Shown: positions 2,664-6,814 of the stretch, piece by piece | Position numbering within the stretch: position 1 is the stretch's first letter | Layout of the letters: each line of letters opens with the position of its first letter | Source: an uncultured Mediterraneibacter sp. | GTDB lineage: Bacteria; Bacillota; Clostridia; Lachnospirales; Lachnospiraceae | Reading direction: 5' to 3' | DNA length: 64,000 nucleotides | NCBI GenBank assembly: GCA_944381935.1 | Contig: CALWMN010000002.1 | Span: 62,001-126,000, forward strand | Notes under the pieces: generated by a model | The model's database searches: none | The model's input: the letters and a program-made list of their open reading frames with translations, nothing else | What the model was told of the DNA's origin: nothing | Position numbers and translations under genes: made by a program

Positions 2664-3772
2664 GAGTAAAATATAAGGCGGGCGAGAACGGAAACGGGGA
2701 CCGCGTGATAAAGAACAGCCTGTTCCCGCTGTCTCTCTTTGCCATTTATCTGGCAACGCTTCTTCTGATGTCAGGGCTTCATGTCGGGCTCATCGTCCTG
2801 ATGAACAGGCTAGAATGGAATGAGGTCATACAGTCTGCCGTGCCGGTCCTGTACTGGGGATCTGTGGCAGTCGGGCTGACCCTTTTTACCAGGAAGAAGA
2901 TAAAGGATACTTACGAAGAGCCTCTCCACAGGCTGGCAGAGGCCACCGAGCGGGTGGCAAACGGGGATTTCTCGGTCTATGTTCCCCAGATCCATACGGC
3001 AGACAGGCTGGATTATCTTGACGTCATGATTCTGGACTTTAACAGAATGGTGGAGGAGCTGGGAAGCGTGGAGACGTTAAAGACTGATTTTGTGTCCAAT
3101 GTCTCCCATGAGATGAAGACCCCGGTCGCCGTTATCAAGAATTACGCGGAGCTTCTTCAGGCAGGAAAGAGGACAGAGAAGGAACGCCTTGAGTACGCCC
3201 GGAATATCGAGGAGGCGGCAGGACGCCTTTCTGACCTGATCAGTGACATCCTGAAGCTGAATAAGCTGGAGAACCAGAGGATCGACCCGGATATCGAGAA
3301 CTATGACCTGTGCGGTCAGCTTGAGGAATGTATCCTCCACTATGAGGAATTATGGGATGAAAAAGATCTCGAACTGGAAGTCGGGATGGAGGAAAAGGCT
3401 TTTGTGAAGGCGGACAGAAACCTGATGGAACTGGTGTGGAATAATCTTCTTTCCAATGCCATCAAGTTCACCGAACCTGGCGGAAGCGTGAGAGTATGCC
3501 AGACTGCTTCAGAGAACGGGATAGAGGTGGAGGTTACAGATACCGGATGTGGGATGAGCAGGGACAGCGTCCGGCATATTTTTGACAAGTTCTATCAGGG
3601 AGAGACCTCCCATTCTAAGGAAGGGAACGGACTGGGACTGTCTCTTGTAAAACGGATTCTCATTCTGATGGACGGCGAGATCTCGGTCGTCAGCGAAGAA
3701 GGAAAGGGGAGCACCTTTACGGTGAGGCTTCCCGCATCAGAAGAATCGGCAGAAAGAGGGAAAGGGGAGTGA
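2660..3772 (+). CDS. HAMP-containing sensor histidine kinase
   Basis: Membrane sensor kinase of 370 residues that pairs with the response regulator it overlaps. Two hydrophobic helices (about 20-48 and 59-78) are joined by a loop of only about ten residues, so there is little extracellular sensor domain. A HAMP-like linker follows (about 80-135). The dimerisation domain carries the phosphoacceptor H150 in SNVSHEMKTP. The ATPase domain shows the N box (NLLSNAIKF), G1 box (DTGCGM) and G2 box (GNGLGLSLV). The tiny external loop suggests that the kinase senses within the membrane or through a partner such as the upstream FtsX permease. This is inference from the architecture. Confidence 0.92.
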   Translation: MRVKYKAGENGNGDRVIKNSLFPLSLFAIYLATLLLMSGLHVGLIVLMNRLEWNEVIQSAVPVLYWGSVAVGLTLFTRKKIKDTYEEPLHRLAEATERVANGDFSVYVPQIHTADRLDYLDVMILDFNRMVEELGSVETLKTDFVSNVSHEMKTPVAVIKNYAELLQAGKRTEKERLEYARNIEEAAGRLSDLISDILKLNKLENQRIDPDIENYDLCGQLEECILHYEELWDEKDLELEVGMEEKAFVKADRNLMELVWNNLLSNAIKFTEPGGSVRVCQTASENGIEVEVTDTGCGMSRDSVRHIFDKFYQGETSHSKEGNGLGLSLVKRILILMDGEISVVSEEGKGSTFTVRLPASEESAERGKGE

Positions 3773-4344
3773 AGACAGTGGAAAATGCGGGAAGAAGGCC
3801 AGGGAAGTATATCGGGTATGAATATAAGGAGGTCGTGGCAGATTCCGGGCAGGCATCCTTCCTGATGGACGGGTATGCCAATTTCGGCTGGGAGACCGAT
3901 GGAAATGTAATGCCGGACGGTCTGGAGCAGTATCGGCAGAGCGCGGGCGGTTCCAGTCACGGTAAGGTTGTGATCCGCCTCAAGAGGGACCGGAAAATCG
4001 TCAACAAGATGGAACTGACAAGGCTGCAGAGAAATTTTGAGGCCTGTGTCGCACAGTTGAGCCACCTTGAGAAAGAGAAGACCTCCATGCCATCCATGCT
4101 GTCGCTGGCGGTGGGAATTGCAGGAACTGCTTTTATTGCAGGAAGTACGTTTGCCGTGACAGCCACCCCGCCTCACATCGTGCTGTGTGTCCTGCTGGCA
4201 GTACCGGGATTCCTCGGATGGATTCTTCCGTATTTTCTGTATAAAGCGGCAGTCAGGAGGCAGACAGAAAAGGTCACGCCGCTGATTGAAGAAAAATACG
4301 ATGAAATCTATGAAATCTGTGAAAGAGGAAACAAACTATTGTAA
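3769..4344 (+). CDS. Membrane protein of unknown function in the two-component operon
   Basis: A 191-residue protein that I do not recognise as a named family. It starts at GTG in a GTGA overlap with the kinase stop, so it is very likely co-translated. The first 100 residues are soluble and contain a predicted helical stretch (KMELTRLQRNFEACVAQLSH). Two membrane segments follow at about 110-131 and 138-160. A charged C-terminal tail of about 30 residues completes the protein. It has no signal peptide and no cysteine pairs. Its place in the operon suggests a role tied to the exporter or sensor. The start is fairly secure because no later methionine precedes the conserved-looking N-terminal region. 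Confidence 0.7.
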   Translation: MKTVENAGRRPGKYIGYEYKEVVADSGQASFLMDGYANFGWETDGNVMPDGLEQYRQSAGGSSHGKVVIRLKRDRKIVNKMELTRLQRNFEACVAQLSHLEKEKTSMPSMLSLAVGIAGTAFIAGSTFAVTATPPHIVLCVLLAVPGFLGWILPYFLYKAAVRRQTEKVTPLIEEKYDEIYEICERGNKLL

Positions 4345-4347
4345 CTA

Positions 4348-4376
4348 TTGACATTACAACTTGAAAGTGCTATCTT
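4348..4376 (+). promoter_or_regulatory. Promoter of the SirTM-macrodomain operon
   Basis: TTGACA (4348-4353) and TATCTT (4371-4376) are 17 bases apart. ATTACA overlaps the -35 (4353-4358), TGTAAT lies at 4389-4394 and ATTACA recurs at 4402-4407, around and after the expected start of transcription. The same TTGACATTACA and AAAATGTAA words occur in the rrf2 promoter, so an Rrf2 site is plausible. The translation start at 4449 is preceded by AGGAGG at 4436-4441. Confidence 0.6.
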
Positions 4377-4448
4377 AAGGATACAAAATGTAATAAAAAT
4401 AATTACAACAAATGGTACCGGGAGCACGGTGCAACAGGAGGCTAAGAG

Positions 4449-5423
4449 ATGGCGATTCAGTTGTTAAACAGGAAGAAGCCTGTGAAAAAGATTGATTTTA
4501 TGCAGTTTTTGAGCGGCGTTCCGGCAAGGGACTATGTGTTTTTAAACACCCCGTATGAAGAGCAGGTCAGGCGGTCCGCACAGTTTTTAAAAAGTGCGGA
4601 CGCCGTGCTCATTGGCGCCGGGGCAGGGCTGTCCACTGCAGCCGGACTTGACTACGGCGGGAAACGGTTTACGGATAATTTTGGGGAGTTCATTGAGAAA
4701 TACGGTCCTGCCATGACAGACATGTACAGCGCCGGTTTTTATCCGTTCCCCACAGAGGAAGAAAAGTGGGGATACTGGTCAAAACATGTGTATCTGAACC
4801 GGATCGAGCCGGGGGCACTGCCGCTTTATCAGTCAATCTATGAACTGGTAAAGAATAAACCGCATTTTGTCCTCACAACGAATGTGGACCATCAGTTCTG
4901 GAAAGCAGGGTTCGCAGATGAAGATATCTTTGCTACGCAGGGAGACTACGGGGAGATCCAGTGCGCCAGAGGATGCCATGACAGGGTATATGACGCAAAA
5001 GAGCTGTTCCTTGAGATGAATGAGGAAAGAAAGGACTGCAGGATTCCATCCTCTATGGTTCCAAAATGCCCGGTGTGCAGGGGAGAGATGGCAATGCATC
5101 TTCGCTGCGACCAGTACTTTGTGGAAGATGGGCACTGGAACGAAGCCGCCTCACGCTACGCCGGTTTCCTGGACAGGCACAGAAAAGGGAAGGTCGCGCT
5201 TCTGGAGCTGGGCGTCGGATTCAATACCCCGACTATCATCCGGTTCCCGTTTGAGAAGATGGCAGGAGAAGAGAAAGGCTGGACACTGATCAGGCTGAAC
5301 CTGGGTGAAGCGGTGGTGCCGGAAAGCCTGGCAGAAAGAGCAACAGGGATCAATGAGGATATTGCGAAGAGCATCCGCGATATCATGAAGGCGGAGAAAT
5401 GCGCAGAGGAGGGGCAGGATTGA
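4449..5423 (+). CDS. Class M sirtuin (SirTM), probable protein ADP-ribosyltransferase
   Basis: Sir2-fold protein of 324 residues. The NAD-binding motif GAGAGLS is at about 56-62 and TTNVDHQFW at 143-151. Zinc cysteines are C172, C176, C207 and C210. The position of the usual catalytic histidine is occupied by Gln164 in ATQGD, which is typical of class M sirtuins. Known members from Streptococcus and Staphylococcus act as mono-ADP-ribosyltransferases on lipoylated GcvH-L rather than as deacetylases. The start codon follows AGGAGG with 7-base spacing. The gene overlaps the macrodomain gene that would reverse its modification. Unlike the described operons, no GcvH-L or LplA2 gene is nearby, so the target protein here is unknown. 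Confidence 0.9.
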   Translation: MAIQLLNRKKPVKKIDFMQFLSGVPARDYVFLNTPYEEQVRRSAQFLKSADAVLIGAGAGLSTAAGLDYGGKRFTDNFGEFIEKYGPAMTDMYSAGFYPFPTEEEKWGYWSKHVYLNRIEPGALPLYQSIYELVKNKPHFVLTTNVDHQFWKAGFADEDIFATQGDYGEIQCARGCHDRVYDAKELFLEMNEERKDCRIPSSMVPKCPVCRGEMAMHLRCDQYFVEDGHWNEAASRYAGFLDRHRKGKVALLELGVGFNTPTIIRFPFEKMAGEEKGWTLIRLNLGEAVVPESLAERATGINEDIAKSIRDIMKAEKCAEEGQD

Positions 5424-6244
5424 AAATGACACATAATGAAAAAAGAGAATATCTGATTAAAGAATTACTGTCAGAACTCCCGCAATACAGTGATATGGAA
5501 ATACCAGACAATGAGGATGAGCAGAAAAGGCTTCTCCGAAGTCTGATGAATATTCGTTCTCCACGCCCGATAAATGATGAGTTTCTTATGATTCAGGACG
5601 AATATTTAAGTGGAGAAGTTGAAAGAAAAGGAGTTACGGACAGCGCATCGCTGCCTGCATCATCCCTGGACAGCCGTCTGGCGCTATGGCGTGGGGATAT
5701 TACAACGCTAAAAATTGATGCTATTGTAAATGCGGCGAACAGTGCCTTGAGGGGATGCTTCATACCTTGCCATTCTTGCGTGGATAACATCATTCACAGC
5801 GTAAGTGGCGTACAGCTCCGTTTGGCCTGCGATCAGATTATGAATGAGCAGGGATACGACGAGCCAACAGGGAAAGCAAAAATTACACCTGCGTATAATT
5901 TGCCTTCTAAATACGTGCTTCACACTGTCGGACCGATAGTATCAGGACGTTTGACGGATAAACATTGCAGGCAGCTTGCAGACTGCTATAAATCCTGCCT
6001 GGAGCTTGCGGCAGATAACAGAGTGAAAAGCATTGCGTTCTGCTGTATTTCCACCGGAGAATTTCATTTCCCGCAGAAAAAGGCCGCGGAAATTGCGGTA
6101 CAGACAGTTAAGGATTATCTGAACACAGATACACGCATAGAGAAGGTGGTATTTAATGTTTTCAAACAAGAAGATTATGACATTTACCGGGAACTCATCG
6201 GACATGATAGAAAAAATGGCAAAAAGTATCCCGTGGGGACATAA
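5420..6244 (+). CDS. Zinc-dependent macrodomain ADP-ribosylhydrolase
   Basis: Predicted to remove ADP-ribose from proteins modified by the sirtuin encoded just upstream. The macrodomain covers the C-terminal two thirds and shows GDITTLKIDAIVNAAN followed by GCFIPCHSC. The Cys, His and Cys of that segment are the zinc ligands of the Zn-macro class. An N-terminal helical extension of about 80 residues is normal for this class. I chose TTG at 5420, which overlaps the sirtuin stop and lies 7 bases after GGAGG (5408-5412). ATG at 5426 is the alternative, and an ATG at 5399 lies upstream of the ribosome site. Translation is probably coupled to the sirtuin gene. Confidence 0.9.
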   Translation: MKMTHNEKREYLIKELLSELPQYSDMEIPDNEDEQKRLLRSLMNIRSPRPINDEFLMIQDEYLSGEVERKGVTDSASLPASSLDSRLALWRGDITTLKIDAIVNAANSALRGCFIPCHSCVDNIIHSVSGVQLRLACDQIMNEQGYDEPTGKAKITPAYNLPSKYVLHTVGPIVSGRLTDKHCRQLADCYKSCLELAADNRVKSIAFCCISTGEFHFPQKKAAEIAVQTVKDYLNTDTRIEKVVFNVFKQEDYDIYRELIGHDRKNGKKYPVGT

Positions 6245-6260
6245 TAAGCGAATCGCTTAT
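6244..6260. repeat. Perfect 17-base palindrome after the macrodomain stop
   Basis: ATAAGCGA, one central A, then TCGCTTAT, starting inside the stop codon. A short A-rich run follows but no T tract, so it is a poor intrinsic terminator in the forward direction. It may be a mRNA end structure or a protein site. Confidence 0.45.
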
Positions 6261-6330
6261 AAATACAAAAAAAGACTCTGAAGATAAACTTACGCTGCCT
6301 TCTCGAAAAGTAAGGGGATGAGTGGAATGA

Positions 6331-6363
6331 TTGACATTACATTTGGCTCCGGGTAAAATGTAA
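6331..6363 (+). promoter_or_regulatory. rrf2 promoter with embedded palindromic operator
   Basis: TTGACA (6331-6336) and TAAAAT (6354-6359) are exactly 17 bases apart. The perfect inverted repeat TTACATTT (6337-6344), N11, AAATGTAA (6356-6363) occupies the spacer and overlaps the -10. A repressor bound here would block RNA polymerase, so autoregulation by the Rrf2 protein is the simplest reading. Confidence 0.7.
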
Positions 6364-6385
6364 GCCAGAAAGAGAGGGGACCGGT

Positions 6386-6814
6386 ATGCAGATTTCAAGC
6401 AGATTTACGATCGCAATACATATGCTGGCGTGTATGGAGACGTTCAAAGAAACTTATAAAATAACAAGTGACTTTCTCTCGGCAAGCATAAATGTGAACC
6501 CGGTTATTATCAGAAAGATACTGTCACAGTTAAGAGAGGCGGGGTTGATTGAAGTAAAGCGCGGTACGGGCGGGGCTTCATTGAAAAAGCCGATGGAAGA
6601 GATCACGTTTCTGGATGTGTACCGCGCAGTGGAGTGCATCGGAGAAAATATGCTCTTTCACTTCCATGAGAATCCCAATCCGGACTGCCCGGTGGGACGC
6701 AATATCCATAATATCCTGGACGACAGGCTTATCCGGGTGCAGGAGGCGATGGAGCGCGAGCTAGAGTCCATCACACTTGCAGATGTGATGGGTGATTTGA
6801 AGAAATACATCTGA
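6386..6814 (+). CDS. Rrf2-family transcriptional regulator (YwnA-like)
   Basis: A 142-residue winged-helix regulator. The N-terminal residues (QISSRFTIAIHMLACM) and the recognition region (SINVNPVIIRKILSQLREAGL) match the Rrf2 family. The usual wing follows (VKRGTGGASL). Rrf2 proteins of the IscR or NsrR type use three clustered cysteines for an iron-sulfur cluster. Here only C101 sits in that region, in NPDCPVGRN, with C16 and C84 elsewhere. This resembles the YwnA branch, so thiol-based sensing is possible and a classic three-cysteine cluster is not. The palindrome over its own promoter and similar words before the sirtuin gene suggest it controls both units. Confidence 0.9.
   Translation: MQISSRFTIAIHMLACMETFKETYKITSDFLSASINVNPVIIRKILSQLREAGLIEVKRGTGGASLKKPMEEITFLDVYRAVECIGENMLFHFHENPNPDCPVGRNIHNILDDRLIRVQEAMERELESITLADVMGDLKKYI

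Follow-up and report, generated by a model that had tools for sequence, protein, structure and literature searches.

A 64,000-nucleotide stretch of DNA from an uncultured Mediterraneibacter sp. of the Lachnospiraceae was analysed (contig CALWMN010000002.1, positions 62,001 to 126,000; hereafter, the window). It carries a class M sirtuin gene (sirTM), a zinc-dependent macrodomain gene (Zn-macro) and the gene of an Rrf2-type regulator (rrf2), all on the plus strand between positions 4449 and 6814. With a probability of about 0.7, these genes represent a lipoylation-independent SirTM/Zn-macro pair belonging to an electrophile (quinone) stress regulon under the adjacent SifR/YwnA-type Rrf2 protein, a reading that leaves the target of the pair unfixed. 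Its parts differ in firmness. The control of sirTM by Rrf2 through the operators described below is very probable, the target is in all likelihood something other than a lipoyl protein, and a quinone or another electrophile is the probable, though less assured, inducer.

Putative writer, eraser and regulator in the window

The features of the region are collected in Table 1. An initial annotation, made from the letters alone, had read the two enzymes as writer and eraser of protein ADP-ribosylation, and these identities were borne out. The closest solved relatives of SirTM were the structures 5a3a/b/c ('SIR2 family protein', E 2.5e-54), followed by 8rsn; the Pfam SIR2 profile gave 17.1 bits, under its 24-bit cut-off. 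As had been noticed initially, Gln164 takes the place of the catalytic His (it lies within TQG, so that QG replaces HG, as in class M), and four zinc cysteines are present, at positions 172, 176, 207 and 210. These five residues were invariant in the 16 aligned SirTMs. The sirTM stop codon and the Zn-macro start are separated by two bases, as expected of linked SirTM genes, and a macrodomain match was present at 72 of 101 SirTM loci (100 stretches hand-chosen from SirTM matches, plus the window).

Table 1. Positions of the genes and predicted control sites of the sirTM region, numbered as in the window.
Feature	Position	Strand	Remarks
Predicted operator 1, TGTAACTATTGACATTACA (TGTAA-N9-TTACA)	4340..4358	+	overlaps the -35 box of the sirTM promoter
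sirTM promoter-like site, TTGACA-17-TATCTT, TG before the -10 box	4348..4376	+	10 of 12 consensus positions
Predicted operator 2, TGTAATAAAAATAATTACA	4389..4407	+	49 bp downstream of operator 1
sirTM, class M sirtuin, putative protein ADP-ribosyltransferase	4449..5423	+	324 amino acids; structure and residue matches
Zn-dependent macrodomain, putative protein ADP-ribose hydrolase	5426..6244	+	NF003163 over cut-off; nearest structure MorMacro 8rsi
Predicted operator 3, TGGAATGATTGACATTACA, one mismatch	6323..6341	+	overlaps the -35 box of rrf2
rrf2 promoter-like site, TTGACA-17-TAAAAT	6331..6359	+	11 of 12 consensus positions
SifR/YwnA-type Rrf2 regulator	6386..6814	+	PF02082, E 4e-35; HENPNPDCPVG at 94-104, Cys101, Cys16

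The Zn-macro open reading frame extends from 5399 to 6244. Its start was placed at the ATG at 5426, giving a protein of 272 amino acids, because a purine-rich stretch resembling a ribosome-binding site precedes it and the start at 5399 overlaps sirTM. This protein scored 355 bits against NF003163, the protein-ADP-ribose hydrolase model (cut-off 272), and the GCFIPCHSC motif that had been pointed out initially, the Zn-binding motif of the catalytic loop, was found at residues 110-118, aligned with GCFIPMHNC of MorMacro. By phmmer, the archaeal MorMacro (8rsi, 299 bits) scored above SauMacro (238) and SpyMacro (185).

In the Rrf2 protein, HENPNPDC at residues 94-101 fits the HxxPNPxC signature of the SifR/YwnA class. 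A profile of this protein found the YwnA structure 1xd7 (E 2e-39), and the best NCBIfam equivalog was HypR, below threshold (53 bits against a cut-off of 180). Cys101 and Cys16 were each invariant in 15 of 15 aligned Rrf2 sequences, the window included; by alignment, Cys16 corresponds to Leu in 1xd7 and to Ile in 1ylf. According to the available part of PMC9218516, SifR of Streptococcus pneumoniae is a monothiol quinone-sensing Rrf2 repressor that senses quinones via the cysteine of the conserved HxxPNPxC motif, and the core bound by both SifR and Staphylococcus aureus HypR is TGTAA-N9-TTACA. The window regulator resembles the SifR/YwnA systems by its HxxPNPxC motif and by this operator, and also because one kind of gene that carries the operator is NmrA-like (YwnB-like); it differs from them in that the genes with the operator include SirTM/Zn-macro.

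Two predicted operators of this class, at 4340 and 4389, accompany the sirTM promoter and are the only TGTAA-N9-TTACA sites in the window (mean after shuffling, 0.07). In the whole 3.04-Mb genome (99.88% complete), operator 1 is the sole perfect match to TGTAAYNNTTGACATTACA, and operator 2 is the only perfect TGTAATN7ATTACA among the genome matches listed. Among the promoter-like sites of the scanned stretch, the two with the highest scores are those whose -35 boxes are overlapped by operators 1 and 3. When 15 Rrf2-linked relatives were scanned with up to two mismatches, most had similar sites near the operon heads, and in 8 of the 15 the sites were paired, 40-49 bp apart. Since rrf2 starts 141 bp downstream of Zn-macro on the same strand and has its own promoter-like site, it is regarded as adjacent, co-transcription being not required.

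The genome encodes a second Rrf2 (C1:115557-115979, 132 bits), and two further TGTAA-N9-TTACA sites, at a distance of 46 bp from each other, belong to it (L308:2017-2081, genome G000, contig C1). The 191-amino-acid gene upstream of sirTM (3769-4344) was considered as a partner of the pair and set aside: it had no Pfam match, and it was assigned to the two-component genes because locus L220, when inspected by eye, has a comparable protein behind comparable two-component genes.

Operator regulon and linkage across the family

Because the looser operator TGTAATN7ATTACA with up to two mismatches lacked specificity, having 182 sites per strand where its reversed control had 123, the strict form TGTAAYNNTTGACATTACA was used. 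The family, taken to be the Lachnospiraceae, was surveyed in 200 genomes, one for each of 200 genera. The strict form matched perfectly at 34 places, in 24 of these genomes, while the reversed control had no match. The first recognised gene 3' of these sites was rrf2 at 7, an NmrA-like gene at 5, a cupin gene at 5, Zn-macro at 4, a PNPOx gene at 4, a PNPOx-ferredoxin gene at 3, sirTM at 3, a SnoaL gene at 2 and an unrelated gene at 1 (Pfam family names). Thus, 33 of the 34 sites lie directly upstream of regulon-type genes. The queries for downstream genes came from the window (L036), L040 (L140), L038 (L145), L202, L199, L043 and L157. Five sites (L036, L140, L145, L199 and L202) lie in loci that supplied queries and match by construction; without them, 28 of the 29 sites precede such genes as independent cases. 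At 16 of the 34 sites, a SirTM or Zn-macro gene was found within the scanned downstream stretch.

In genome G028 the operator precedes a lone Zn-macro gene (L209) on a contig other than those of rrf2 and SirTM, and in G071 a lone Zn-macro gene has it that is separated from rrf2 by some 2 kb, SirTM lying on a different contig (L208/L216). In G021 it precedes an unlinked PNPOx-ferredoxin gene (L153), and in G185 a site with one mismatch precedes SnoaL and PNPOx-ferredoxin genes (L157).

Operator and regulator occurred together. After exclusion of 16 of 55 Rrf2 genomes with less than 170 bits, 39 genomes with a strong Rrf2 match were retained; the operator was present in 19 of these, against 5 of the 161 others (Fisher p 9e-12). 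In the 101-locus set, it was found with at most one mismatch at 14 of the 20 loci that have Rrf2 and at 5 of the 81 that lack it (Rrf2 counted anywhere in the fetched stretch, with at least 50% identity); four of these five have a strong Rrf2 elsewhere in the genome. In the best 80 of 592 named loci, counted in the same way, the figures were 20 of 24 and 4 of 56.

The initial annotation had named lack of a conserved rrf2 linkage in relatives as a finding that would count against it; the linkage recurs, at 20 of the 101 loci and at 24 of the best 80 of 592, the named loci including Coprococcus comes, Lachnoclostridium sp. An138 and Ruminococcus flavefaciens. The C. comes locus (L236) combines Rrf2 and operators with PNPOx-ferredoxin, Zn-macro and SirTM. 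An HxlR-type regulator was found at 39 of the 101 loci, both regulators at 4 and neither at 46. YodB of Bacillus subtilis is a protein of the HxlR family. It is a quinone sensor according to the available part of PMC9218516. The Rrf2 and HxlR types of regulator may thus both point to electrophile stress.

For tree building, 103 of 181 loci were kept, namely those with near full-length, stop-free matches and partners at most 3.5 kb apart. On the SirTM tree of these 103 pairs, the Rrf2 label changes 16 times, at least 8 changes being forced by supported branches, and it clusters beyond all 500 shuffles. From this it was concluded that the regulator has been exchanged repeatedly, though not at random. 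The window SirTM falls together with the Rrf2-linked loci L229, L228 and L038 by path (quick tree, support 95); the window Zn-macro groups with the HxlR-type loci L073/L078 (quick tree, support 96) and is 88% identical to that of L073 over the tree columns. A tree constrained to unite the window Zn-macro with L038 and L229 was rejected by the approximately unbiased (AU) test (p 4.3e-6, or 1.2e-7 with L228 added), and so was one uniting the window SirTM with L073/L078 (5.1e-7); the constrained groups were picked after the trees and identities had been seen. By its sequence, the window Zn-macro thus seems to derive from another lineage by exchange.

At locus L220 (G028:C67), an rrf2 gene 81% identical to that of the window stands beside seemingly the same two-component genes, the SirTM/Zn-macro pair being absent, which suggests a gain or a loss of the pair at that place. 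This locus and the 16 label changes would suit an incidental adjacency, in which the pair is a mobile cassette that landed beside an rrf2 gene controlling other genes. Such an origin is very improbable, given that both operators of the sirTM promoter are the only sites of their kind in 64 kb, that the unlinked Zn-macro gene of G028 retains an operator (L209/L221), and that the clustering of the Rrf2 label exceeds every shuffle.

Other arrangements of these genes were also seen. Tandem SirTM-like pairs that no Zn-macro directly adjoins occur at L043:4806-6603, L054:6932-9661, L055:6792-8634, L127, L129:4992-6822, L130, L131, L136 and L137; the L043 locus additionally carries a separate SirTM/Zn-macro pair, and L054 has a distant macrodomain match at its edge. 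In these tandems, one partner has Gln at the position of Gln164 and the other Glu, and both have the four zinc cysteines; they possibly form a Q/E sirtuin complex. A distant Rrf2 (31-38% identity) adjoins several of them, and C_GCAxxG_C_C or DUF3786 genes lie next to some. At L110 (G128:C97, genome 69% complete), a single open frame of 513 amino acids has matches to Zn-macro as well as to SirTM and may be a bacterial counterpart of the fusions described for fungi. The Zn-macro/SirTM copies at L210 and L048 (G136, G155) have interrupted reading frames; in the broken copy L210, the operator site lies past the estimated start of the gene. Finally, L064, L079, L084, L098, L107 and L124 join, with varying completeness, a short HxlR-like regulator, a radical SAM/SPASM protein, a nitroreductase, a PNPOx-ferredoxin, SirTM and in some cases Zn-macro, which looks like a second type of redox operon for SirTM.

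Lipoylation genes and the known SirTM operons

In the extended operons of S. aureus and Streptococcus pyogenes, GcvH-L, Zn-macro, SirTM and LplA2 occur together, with OYE/LLM. The window shares the writer and eraser families with them, and its relatives carry nearby flavin-type redox genes; unlike them, it has no carrier or ligase. As the initial annotation had it, neither GcvH nor lipoate ligase was found among the scanned neighbours of the three genes. The same held for the rest of the genome, where a GcvH-L/LplA2 pair would have spoken against that annotation: the lipoate ligase domain PF21948 had no match (it was found in 13 of 14 control genomes), and the sole match of PF01597, the GCV_H profile, was a biotin carrier (AccB-like) with VEAMKLMNEIES, below cut-off.

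Across the family, 117 genomes had SirTM matches, of which the 90 strong ones were kept, some tandem-type SirTMs among them; the 27 left out (E above 1e-40) were weak, partial or distant matches, perhaps with a few true SirTMs. PF21948 was found in 33 and PF01597 in 27 of the 200 genomes, and 75 of the 90 SirTM genomes had a match to neither. No association of SirTM with LplA (p 0.85) or GcvH (p 1.0) was detected across the 200 genomes, and the LplA or GcvH gene nearest to a SirTM on one contig lies about 105 kb away (G149, coordinates compared by eye). On these grounds, a linked lipoylation system was rejected, and the suggestion that the target and the redox link differ from those of known systems is held to be the better reading.

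The view of the initial annotation that described SirTM operons include GcvH-L and LplA2 as a rule was not borne out, pairs free of both being already in print. In the available text of Rack 2015 (PMC4518038), bacterial SirTM and macrodomain genes are placed in independent or extended operons, the Lachnospiraceae are named, and the SirTM of an extended operon prefers the lipoylated carrier. Ariza 2024 (PMC11490716), in the part available, calls the lone SirTM/Zn-macro pair a 'minimal operon', states that the targets of other pairs are unknown and reports that MorMacro did not demodify GcvH-L. The window resembles the minimal operon of Methanobrevibacter oralis, the source of MorMacro, as far as these texts describe it: SirTM and Zn-macro are adjacent, GcvH-L and LplA2 are absent, and MorMacro is the nearest relative of its Zn-macro. 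It differs by the addition of an Rrf2 regulator and operators. With regard to the extended operons, a further difference is that SpyMacro R172, K175 and R183 correspond to Ile, Ser and His in the window Zn-macro (HMMER alignment inspected by eye, the offset being taken as four residues), other Arg and Lys residues being present nearby.

The word 'Rrf2' does not occur in the main text of either paper, and no description of Rrf2-type regulation of SirTM/Zn-macro was found in the open literature, subscription papers and preprints being outside the search. The predicted control by Rrf2 and its operators therefore appears to be new as far as that literature goes. Of the claim that Rrf2 stands in place of carrier and ligase, the adjacency was retained; Rrf2 is a regulator, however, and replaces no carrier.

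Several observations weigh against a lipoylation-independent, Rrf2-controlled pair. A lipoate ligase match is present in 14 of the 90 SirTM genomes. The operator (at most one mismatch) was not found at 6 of the 20 Rrf2 loci of the 101-locus set, nor at 4 of the 24 among the best 80 of 592, and a strong Rrf2 match was not found in 5 of the 24 operator genomes. With relatedness controlled, the link between Rrf2 and operator was not significant (median p 0.22), about 4.1 of 8 independent pairs going the same way and 0.4 the opposite way. Lastly, the second Rrf2 of the genome, having its own operator pair, may cross-bind.

Candidate targets and proposed mechanism

Besides the pair, the largest cluster of neighbours was that of a PNPOx-like flavin domain, which in many cases carries a fused 2[4Fe-4S] ferredoxin (Pfam), at 31 of the 101 loci, HxlR proteins having fallen into the cluster of the pair; by tblastn, PNPOx or the PNPOx-ferredoxin form was found at 39. 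PNPOx-ferredoxin occurred in 51 of the 200 genomes, 49 of which have SirTM (p 3e-19), and when genomes with linked copies were set aside, 16 of the remaining 18 had SirTM (p 6e-7). Locus L225 carries NmrA, Rrf2, PNPOx-ferredoxin, Zn-macro and SirTM in one complete row. The genome of the window encodes two copies, one on contig C33 just upstream of a second Zn-macro/SirTM pair, the other on C17 with a divergent HxlR gene. These co-occurrences support a functional tie between PNPOx-ferredoxin and SirTM, of which modification would be one form. The exchange of an eraser between a locus of the Rrf2 type and one linked to PNPOx-ferredoxin (L073) is compatible with a common substrate, among other readings. 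From the gene content, PNPOx-ferredoxin, encoded elsewhere in this genome, may be a better candidate for the place of the carrier than Rrf2. As a target it is a tentative proposal, given that 41 of the 90 SirTM genomes had no match to it, that neither copy adjoins the window pair, and that no operator with at most one mismatch was found in the stretches fetched around the two copies.

These 41 genomes, together with the absence of a carrier gene beside the window pair and the reductase-like members of the regulon, which suggest detoxification, would also suit enzymes acting on a small molecule, on nucleic acid or on many proteins, for instance by ADP-ribosylating an electrophile or its thiol adduct. 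Such an activity is unlikely: in the available texts, the characterised SirTMs modified one specific protein (PMC4518038), and the tested Zn-macros removed ADP-ribose from protein (PMC11490716).

SirTM might otherwise act on another swinging-arm carrier, such as the biotin carrier AccB, PNPOx-ferredoxin being merely a co-regulated neighbour. The lipoyl-carrier preference of the extended-operon SirTM and the AccB-like identity of the GCV_H match lend this some weight. AccB is common housekeeping equipment, and thus it fails to explain the patchy distribution of SirTM; furthermore, no biotin gene was found among the identified neighbour families (most neighbours had no identification), and the first gene after 33 of the 34 operator sites belongs to other families. 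On balance, a carrier of this kind appears improbable.

Other sirtuin-like proteins act in phage defence, and the pair could be viewed as an anti-phage module or one that depletes nicotinamide adenine dinucleotide (NAD). PADLOC models matched none of the four proteins (those of the three genes and of the preceding gene), and neither an eraser nor stress operators are known as typical features of defence modules, so that this function is hardly to be expected.

Under the preferred reading of an electrophile-responsive pair, reduced Rrf2 would bind the paired operators, one covering the -35 box of sirTM and the other lying immediately beyond its -10 box, as well as one site over the -35 box of rrf2. 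Cys101, possibly together with Cys16, would be modified by quinones or other electrophiles (or by oxidants); the modified Rrf2 would leave the DNA and both transcripts would be switched on. SirTM would then mono-ADP-ribosylate a redox protein using NAD+, and Zn-macro would remove the mark. The target would not be lipoyl-GcvH-L. Its leading candidate would be the PNPOx/2[4Fe-4S] ferredoxin flavoprotein, because it shares operons, operators and genomes with SirTM. A wider, doubtful version would be that, in Lachnospiraceae and relatives, a quinone-gated SirTM/Zn-macro reversibly ADP-ribosylates this flavo-ferredoxin and so stops or redirects low-potential electron flow under electrophile stress, with NmrA, Rrf2, PNPOx-ferredoxin, Zn-macro and SirTM as the core unit.

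What emerges is a regulator whose operator is defined, together with its regulon, a probable class of inducers and one candidate substrate by name, and the question of the SirTM target thereby becomes directly testable in gut commensals. The findings also suggest a general place for reversible ADP-ribosylation by SirTM in electrophile stress, independent of lipoylation.

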